DNA from: Candidatus Saccharimonadota bacterium
GTDB taxonomy: Bacteria > Patescibacteriota > Saccharimonadia > Saccharimonadales > Saccharimonadaceae
Length of the DNA: 64,000 nucleotides
Direction: 5' to 3'
Assembly: GCA_009783305.1 (NCBI GenBank)
Contig: WRHJ01000001.1
Span: 62,001 to 126,000 of the forward strand
Every line of letters begins with the position of its first letter. Position 1 is the first letter of the stretch. The position numbers and the translations under genes were made by a program. Positions 40,285-42,637 of this stretch are shown here, piece after piece. Under the pieces are notes generated by a model that saw nothing but the letters and a program-made list of their open reading frames with translations, ran no database searches and had not been told where the DNA came from.

Positions 40285-42474
40285 TTATGGGAGGACACAG
40301 CGGACGGTAAGACCAAAGTACTTTGGGGCGGAACCGTCAAGGCCAGTACCCGGGTACACGAAAGCAGCGTAGGAATTCAGGATACGGGCGTTGGTGGCAG
40401 AGTTGGTCGTAGAGCTCCAGAAATAGTTGCGTGCGCCCTGCATGCCGAAGTTATTAGGGCGGTATCCAGAGAAGGTGCCAGACCATTGGGCGCCTGGTAA
40501 CCAACCAGCAAAAGTAGAGGTGGTAGCATTACCTGTCGCCAAAGCACCTGCTGCCATGCTGGCATTGAGGACTGGAAAGTCCGCATGAGTGGAAACTGTA
40601 CCGTTGGTGGTTGGACCACCGGTACCAGATGTCCCAGAGGGTAATCTGAAGTTAGCTAAGCAAATATTCCCCGTAACTTGGTTGCCGTCCGTACCAACGC
40701 TATAAGTGCCTGTGCCATTAGTCGCCGCATACCAGTTATATAGGTAACCACAGTGGGTGGTGGTGTTGGTCGCCATGTAGCTAGTGCTGCCACCGTAGCA
40801 ACTGTCTATGCCCATAGGATTATTGTAAAAAGCCTTATTGCTGTTAGTAGCGCTCTGCGTACTGGTGCCATTAATCGTGTTAAAAGTGCTAGTCTCATTT
40901 CGGTAGATCATACCAACCGACCCAGCTGTGCCATTGGGTATACCACTGGAATCTACGCCATCATAGTTCTGGATCACGTCATCTATGTACTTCAAATTAT
41001 CAATCATCCAGCACTTATTGTCGATCATACGTTTTACTTTATAGACTTGGTTGTTTCTAGTGTCCCTCACGTAGACAATGGATGGATTAGGCCCAGGACT
41101 AATTGGGTTAATAGTTGTAGTATTGCTTGGCGTCATACTAGAACAATTGGTAGAAGTAAAGCCATTGGGATAGTAAGGATAGGTATAGCCATTTAAGGTT
41201 ACAGTACTAGCTGTTGGATCAAAGTAGGTAATCTTCATATGGGTATAAGTGCTGGCATCAGTTACATTGGTACCTGGTGCAGTGCCATTGGTAACTACAA
41301 TGTCATTAGTAGTGCCACTTACTTTTGCTGGTAGTACACAGGTAATCTTAGAGTTAGACACTACTGTATAGCTGCTGCAAGCTGTGCCGCCAATAGTTAC
41401 ACTGCTAACATCACTGAAGATGTGGTTGCCGGTAATAGTCACACTATCTCCTGTCCAACCCGTAGTAGGGTAAACATCCAGAACTGGTGGGTTGAGATCA
41501 ACTATGGTTAGTTCTATATCACTATTACTACTCCCTCCAAACGTCTTCACGATTACAGGATAAACACCAGGCTCTAGCTCTGGTACAGTGCAGGTAAGAC
41601 TAGTATTGCTAGTAACTACTCGATTAGTACAGCTCATGGCAGCAATTCCACTACTACCTCCTCCTATAGTCACTCTCAACACTCCACTAGTTGATCCACC
41701 AGCATAGAAATTAGTACCAGTAATTGTGATGGTATTACCGGCTGCAGCAGAAGTAGGAGAAACACTAACTACAGTAGGAGGAGGAACAGGGTTAGTTACA
41801 GCCGTGAAGGTAACAGTCTGTTTGTAGACTCCTACCTTCTGATTCATATCAGCTCTAGCTCCAAAGGTAACAATAGTCTCATCATCTTCTATGGGAGCAC
41901 TTGAGCTATTAATAGTATCAGGAGGACCATCAGGTAGAGGAATAGCCTTAAAGTCTTCTAGGACGCTGCTCATAGGTCCTACATCATAGCCCCAGGTATT
42001 ATTAGCTAATGTTCCTGCAGTAATGTTGTCAGTACTAGGTATAGTAGCTGGAGTAGGTAAGCCTAACAATACATCACCACTATGCACTAGACTATTGTCA
42101 CTTGTTTCACTATTCATAGTTAGGGTATAGCCAGTACGATTATTAGTACCTACTGTTACTACGAGCTCTCCAGATCCTACCATGCCAGAAGGTATTGGTG
42201 TAATCTTAAAGTCTACAAGATCAGTGTCTGTAGTGAGATTCAGCACAGGTGCGATGTCTATGAGGATGTCGGCAGAAGCGGAGTCATCTACTGCACTGCT
42301 ACTCTGAGTGTAGGGGATGAACACCAGAGAACCAATGACGAAGGTAAGAGCGAAGGAAGTGAGGAAGACCAGAAAAGAACCAATCAGATTTTTACTGAAC
42401 CAGCTTGATCGCAGAGAAAACCTGCTTCGGGCAGGGTTTTCTCTGGAGTCGCTACGTTCAGAAAAACCTGACAT
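40285..42474 (-). CDS. Large surface protein with IPT/TIG and FISUMP domains
   Basis: About 729 residues from the ATG at 42474 (743 from a GTG at 42516). A signal anchor (about 28-50), a beta-rich N-terminal region, two IPT/TIG domains (PTVVSVSPTSAAAGNTITIT and PPVLDVYPTTGWTGDSVTIT), then a FISUMP-type C-terminal domain (CWMIDNLKY, CGYLYNWYAAT, YFWSSTT, ending RCVLP). Thr/Ser/Asn-rich, typical of secreted adhesins. No LPxTG end is seen. It lies between rplO and secY with its own TATACT box (42560..42555) and a (GA)10 tract at the start. Confidence 0.87.
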   Translation of the reverse strand: MSGFSERSDSRENPARSRFSLRSSWFSKNLIGSFLVFLTSFALTFVIGSLVFIPYTQSSSAVDDSASADILIDIAPVLNLTTDTDLVDFKITPIPSGMVGSGELVVTVGTNNRTGYTLTMNSETSDNSLVHSGDVLLGLPTPATIPSTDNITAGTLANNTWGYDVGPMSSVLEDFKAIPLPDGPPDTINSSSAPIEDDETIVTFGARADMNQKVGVYKQTVTFTAVTNPVPPPTVVSVSPTSAAAGNTITITGTNFYAGGSTSGVLRVTIGGGSSGIAAMSCTNRVVTSNTSLTCTVPELEPGVYPVIVKTFGGSSNSDIELTIVDLNPPVLDVYPTTGWTGDSVTITGNHIFSDVSSVTIGGTACSSYTVVSNSKITCVLPAKVSGTTNDIVVTNGTAPGTNVTDASTYTHMKITYFDPTASTVTLNGYTYPYYPNGFTSTNCSSMTPSNTTTINPISPGPNPSIVYVRDTRNNQVYKVKRMIDNKCWMIDNLKYIDDVIQNYDGVDSSGIPNGTAGSVGMIYRNETSTFNTINGTSTQSATNSNKAFYNNPMGIDSCYGGSTSYMATNTTTHCGYLYNWYAATNGTGTYSVGTDGNQVTGNICLANFRLPSGTSGTGGPTTNGTVSTHADFPVLNASMAAGALATGNATTSTFAGWLPGAQWSGTFSGYRPNNFGMQGARNYFWSSTTNSATNARILNSYAAFVYPGTGLDGSAPKYFGLTVRCVLP

Positions 42475-42485
42475 GTTCTTTTCTG

Positions 42486-42506
42486 CTCTCTCTCTCTCTC
42501 TCTCTC
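42486..42506. repeat. (GA)10 dinucleotide tract at the surface-protein start
   Basis: Ten GA units on the coding strand end 12 nt before the ATG at 42474. They lie within the frame from the GTG at 42516. An upstream ATG (42541) is out of frame by one base: gain of one unit or loss of two would fuse it to the main protein. Confidence 0.8.
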
Positions 42507-42594
42507 GGATCGGCACAACAAGACCATACTAAACGCTCCATTTAGGTTAAGGTTAGTATAGCATGAAGTTTAAGCGCAGGTCAAAGCTCCGCGA

Positions 42595-42622
42595 CAAAAA
42601 GCCACCTGCGGGTGCGAGTGGC
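42595..42622 (-). terminator. Terminator after rplO
   Basis: On the minus strand GCCAC and GTGGC pair around a 12-nt loop, followed by TTTTT. It separates the spc block from the surface-protein gene. Confidence 0.7.
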
Positions 42623-42637
42623 TTGATGGAATATTTT

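Follow-up and report, generated by a model that had tools for sequence, protein, structure and literature searches.

A putative phase-variable GA tract near the 5' end of a Saccharimonadota surface-protein gene

The window analysed here, a stretch of 64 kb (G000:C1:62001-126000) from a source genome of 788 kb in seven contigs, carries on its minus strand a surface-protein gene flanked by rplO and secY (Table 1). The 729-codon frame that the first-pass annotation had reported from ATG 42474 is present. The AlphaFold model of the FISUMP region (pLDDT 40.6) was too poor for a fold search. The gene has its own promoter-like site, TTGACC-18-TATACT (42584-42555), and a sequence identical to the -10-like hexamer with its TG extension precedes the paralogue at the start of contig C5. 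The loop of the stem after rplO exceeds the length covered by the terminator scan, hence the stem was read by eye. This family of surface genes is accessory, being found in 2 of 45 genomes of the genus, and relatives of the protein come mostly from metagenome-assembled genomes annotated as Saccharibacteria or 'Nomurabacteria', which makes the source a Patescibacterium and, by inference, probably one of the Saccharimonadia. One relative (44% identity) is encoded on a 73-kb contig (NZ_JACLZC010000005.1, L002) of a Pseudoflavonifractor phocaeensis assembly; this contig may be Patescibacteria contamination. Diversification of the window gene by a diversity-generating retroelement (DGR) was considered and is unsupported, since neither RVT_1 in the source genome nor a second copy of the C-terminal region of the window protein was found.

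Table 1. Features of the surface-protein locus in window coordinates, and loci (L numbers) of related elements elsewhere
Feature	Position or loci	Strand	Basis or remark
Terminator-like stem GCCAC/GTGGC + T5, 3' of rplO	42596..42623	-	by eye, inferred
-35-like hexamer TTGACC	42579..42584	-	consensus match, rplO-surface gene interval
-10-like hexamer TATACT with TG extension	42555..42560	-	consensus match; 18-nt spacer to -35
Shine-Dalgarno-like GGAG, 8 nt before ATG 42527	42536..42539	-	paralogues: AGGAG, same position
ORF from ATG 42527, assembled 10-unit state	42384..42527	-	47 codons, out of frame with surface protein (predicted OFF)
(GA)10 G dinucleotide tract, 21 nt, codons 8-14 from ATG 42527	42486..42506	-	exact repeat
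Palindromic repeat element, about 115 nt, long hairpin directly after tract	42371..42485	-	fold, copy search
Surface protein, 729 aa from ATG 42474 (or joined to ATG 42527)	40285..42474	-	open frame
N-terminal membrane anchor, residues about 29-53	42316..42390	-	hydropathy 2.44 over 19 residues
IPT/TIG domain, better of two stretches	41521..41778	-	PF01833, 5e-21
Fib_succ_major (FISUMP) domain, C-terminus	40294..41025	-	just below curated cut-off
Palindrome copies	window 42371-42485; L024, L028:180-249, L029:750-812, L030:851-924, L031:826-908, L032:868-930, L176-L179		
RT-gene tracts in family	L132, L146, L155		
RT-gene tracts outside family	L187, L188, L189, L190, L195, L197, L200-L203, L205, L208-L210		

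The perfect run of ten GA units noticed earlier was confirmed, with one G added; no other perfect 2-bp repeat in the window is as long, and the number of such 21-mers expected by chance is 0 (100 dinucleotide-preserving shuffles). As possible starts the first-pass annotation had named ATG 42541, GTG 42516, and ATG 42474. The two upstream codons exist, and the arithmetic offered for ATG 42541, which comes into frame with one unit more or two fewer, is correct, but the relevant start was overlooked. This is ATG 42527, conserved in the paralogues and preceded by GGAG (42539-42536), which we infer to be the main start of the surface protein from its signal and its conservation alone. ATG 42541 is unusable in a sister copy with the same promoter, where it reads MERLVWSC*. 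In the frame of ATG 42527, the loss of one GA unit (computed) or the gain of two (by arithmetic) would join the short ORF to the 729-residue protein, giving 746 codons after the loss. The predicted change is ON/OFF, and not merely the added N-terminus of 20-odd residues proposed before. If the real start were ATG 42474 or GTG 42516, the window tract would not switch the frame likewise.

In the whole 788-kb genome, GA tracts reach six units or more at four places only, the window copy among them, and all four lie 21 nt after the ATG of paralogous genes for membrane-anchored surface proteins. This ATG is preceded by GGAG or AGGAG in each case, and the products begin M[A/V]LL[N/S/C]RSERERER. The copies at the start of contig C5, the end of C3, and the end of C2 are 100% identical over 103-105 nt after the tract and differ in the tract itself. 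With 11 units the C5 and C3 copies have an open frame (ETKSTNSAFDK...VKNR, predicted ON), which can be followed into or through the membrane anchor only as far as each contig goes and in C5 continues through VGAFTIFLSCFVFAF up to the contig end; with 10 units the C2 end copy reads MALLSRSERERERD and stops at codon 14 (predicted OFF). A fifth copy, at the start of C2, has an interrupted tract. The sister gene bodies start at contig ends elsewhere (C5 end, C3 start, C4 end, C1 start), as expected if the identical middle segment broke the assembly. The window copy diverges from its sisters after the tract, where its hairpin element is inverted relative to theirs, and may thus be derived or in decay.

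This hairpin, overlooked in the first-pass annotation, buries ATG 42474; the segment 42355-42527 folds with -76.5 kcal/mol (z = -7.26). It belongs to a palindromic element with about 17-18 copies in the source genome, found elsewhere in the genus only in G025 (4 copies). Its core is constant, and its outer arms differ from locus to locus but remain self-complementary, with double changes in 20 of 36 pairs. Copies lie in frame inside tsaD, truB, priA, and exonuclease and lysozyme-like genes. No RAYT/Y1 transposase was found as a candidate mover. Rickettsia palindromic elements are dispersed palindromes of about 100-150 nt that occupy intergenic as well as in-frame coding positions. The element described here resembles them in size, in being dispersed, and in lying in frame inside genes as well as between genes (no sequences were compared), and differs from them in its locus-specific yet self-complementary outer arms.

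Similar tracts recur across the taxonomic family: GA tracts occur in 37 of 295 genomes, versus 5 of 295 for control CA tracts. A frame open for at least 100 aa follows 30 of 93 tracts in the GA sense, which codes an ER repeat, and 44 in the CT sense, which codes an LS repeat; in none of the 93 does the 3' end of such a frame lie at the tract on the CT strand. An ATG with a Shine-Dalgarno (SD) sequence or an extended -10 stands upstream of 31 of the 60 tracts preceding a frame of at least 150 aa, versus a mean of 1.8 and a maximum of 7 in 200 rounds of shuffled upstream sequence; about half of the family tracts have no clear start signal under this test. Two long frames, of 1389 codons in L094 and 825 codons in L161, are in frame as assembled, and in a looser start-signal set 14 of 45 tracts are in frame. 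This proportion is close to the one third expected under free drift of length; however, arbitrary starts would give the same, so it counts only together with the start-signal enrichment. Moreover, not every tract marks a gene start, since the 14.5-unit GA tract L056 (G025:C6) is followed by no long frame in any phase.

The genes with tracts at their 5' ends encode type IV prepilins, TIG-domain, lectin-like, and other proteins. A Pfam tally of 66 downstream frames gave N_methyl (prepilin N-methylation motif) 17, TIG 14, Laminin_G_3 (laminin-G-like) 7, RVT_1 3, EcoRI_methylase 2, and Methylase_S 1. An array of six type IV prepilin genes in G216 (L152, G216:C10:93500-106000) has a separate (CT)n tract shortly after each start, most of these genes reading ATG AAA AAG CG..., then (CT)7-17, then GFTIVELLVVIVVIGILAAITIVSYTGI; similar prepilins with tracts occur in other genomes (L133, L134, L147-L151, L153, and L154 also). 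GA tracts also lie in or beside EcoRI-methylase-like or HsdS-like genes (L139, L140, L142, L194), which are candidates for phase-variable restriction-modification.

Change in tract length was seen between species. In a reverse-transcriptase gene of two close species, G180 and G092 (L132/L155), the tract has 14.5 versus 23.5 units, although its flanks align without gaps at 94.8% identity over 463 nt and 92.8% over 900 nt; in a third species it counts 7.5 units. So far as assembled sequences can tell, this shows that GA tracts are far quicker to change than the sequence around them. Of the GA/CT tracts in Patescibacteria outside the family, about half are located within reverse-transcriptase genes or at their 5' ends. 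In the cases tested, an Avd-like gene starts divergently at the same reverse-transcriptase tract (NF033474, 73.7 and 66.0 bits versus a cut-off of 80); these are possible phase-variable DGRs.

We interpret the window tract, with a probability of roughly 0.8, as a contingency tract for slipped-strand translational phase variation of the surface protein, a reading in which slippage, main start, and switching are all inferred. Slipped-strand mispairing during replication would add or remove GA units; translation would start at ATG 42527 and read MVLLCRSERERER..., and only one tract length in three would leave the membrane anchor and the TIG and FISUMP domains in frame. The assembled window copy would then be OFF from ATG 42527, as would one 10-unit sister, and the 11-unit sisters would be ON. 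The earlier suggestion of phase variation by repeat slippage thus gains support from the 10 and 11 units found in paralogues on otherwise identical sequence and from the recurrence in the family, with switching itself undemonstrated.

Most of the usual marks of a gene that varies by simple sequence repeats are present. The repeat is perfect, of short unit, and longer than chance allows, and the genes are predicted to act at the cell surface or in host and phage interplay. Gain or loss of units is predicted to shift the frame after a start that is itself inferred from the sequence and the paralogues, and unit number varies on conserved flanks, as judged from the assembled paralogues and species pair and not within a population. 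We document here that the tract exists, that it keeps its place behind a start signal, that its length differs between paralogues and between species, and what this predicts for the frame; that a population switches back and forth and that the protein serves in host-cell contact are our inference.

A rival reading is a stable 5'-untranslated element, with ATG 42474 or GTG 42516 as the start codon and a purine run that serves ribosome binding or spacing, so that its length tunes expression; a ribosome site of this kind was part of the earlier proposal. The GA run is indeed purine-rich and the assembled sequence leaves the 729-codon frame open from ATG 42474, but neither codon has an SD sequence at normal spacing, and ATG 42474 sits within the very stable hairpin. 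Its equivalent is missing in the paralogues, which nevertheless keep the ATG at -21 with AGGAG, and GTG 42516 owes its existence to a local TTGTGCC variant that the sister genes lack. The CT-sense tracts, which have the same role in prepilins, cannot be SD sites at all, and the GA run is more likely coding, as an ER repeat; we regard this explanation as quite improbable. Leader-peptide attenuation, in which tract length would set the stop of an upstream ORF relative to the hairpin and the passage or stalling of ribosomes would decide transcription, is somewhat better placed, though still unlikely. It has a precedent in Streptococcus gallolyticus pil1 (PMC3894217), and the anatomy is similar: a promoter, an SD-ATG, and a repeat in a short ORF are followed by a hairpin. 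The stop of the ORF from ATG 42527 also moves, from before the hairpin core with 11 units (23 codons) to near the hairpin end with 10 (47 codons), and is removed with 9. However, no separate downstream gene start has its own ribosome site, the hairpin itself lies within the coding frame, and, although the hairpin terminator consensus is matched on both strands, the T run has only four T before CTC (TTTTCTC). The hairpin is, besides, a dispersed repeat found also inside housekeeping genes, where it cannot be an efficient terminator. Attenuation could be a possible second layer, adding to the frame switch rather than replacing it.

That the repeat is decaying or non-functional, a mere result of faulty replication in a paralogue that the cell can do without, and has no selected role would agree with the interrupted tract of the C2 start copy and with the absence of the gene from most of the genus. 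Nonetheless, the 732-codon frame after the tract is intact, and the design of a tract after a start is seen again in tandem prepilin arrays and in surface genes of unrelated kinds, so that we give this possibility very little weight.

For slippage-driven phase variation, the wider picture is more tentative, and we would not yet put it at even odds: a Patescibacteria GA/CT 'phasome' would switch surface adhesins, type IV prepilin arrays, restriction-modification genes, and the DGR reverse transcriptase with its Avd. Even a targeted-mutation system would then be under random ON/OFF control. Switching of this sort bears on the question of how ultrasmall epibionts, which have very few regulators, fit their surface to host cells and phages. 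In Saccharibacteria, type IV pili drive episymbiosis (PMC12206443), and in one family prepilin as well as adhesin-like genes carry slippage tracts after their start codons. If phase variation by such tracts is real, a clonal population of epibionts is a mixture of surface types, and annotation of metagenome-assembled genomes often takes OFF alleles for broken or mis-started genes.

Repeat-length ON/OFF switching is a known trick of animal-associated pathogens; in the opa genes of Neisseria the repeat unit is (CTCTT)n. For Saccharibacteria and Patescibacteria we found no report of phase variation in open-licence PMC papers, in line with the earlier remark that it is little described in CPR bacteria. 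The nearest published case, a 9-mer coding repeat with synonymous variation in a Gracilibacterium (PMC6851277), is a different phenomenon. The class of mechanism is known, and, within open-licence PMC papers, a recurrent system in this lineage appears unreported.

The closest likeness in design is with Helicobacter pylori oipA, which undergoes (CT)n phase variation in its signal-peptide coding region (PMC10564699). In both, a dinucleotide repeat occupies the first codons of a surface gene and the number of units decides passage beyond an early stop. In contrast to oipA, the window tract is GA in the sense strand (many relatives, including the prepilins, are CT in sense), a palindromic repeat follows it, and its product is not an outer-membrane protein but an N-terminally membrane-anchored TIG/FISUMP protein of a Patescibacterium, whose switching has not been shown experimentally. 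The opa family of Neisseria, about 11 dispersed genes with phase variation by coding repeats (PMC3745409), likewise consists of several paralogues scattered over the genome, and since every one has a coding repeat to itself, the ON/OFF states are combinatorial. In opa, however, the unit has five bases, the proteins are unrelated to those of the window family, and switching is proven. Finally, S. gallolyticus pil1, controlled by attenuation through GCAGA repeats in a leader peptide (PMC3894217), shares with the window locus the order of elements and a stop that moves relative to a hairpin. In pil1, however, leader and pilus gene are distinct and the hairpin serves as a U-tailed terminator, whereas in the window both repeat and hairpin lie inside the protein's own 5' coding region.
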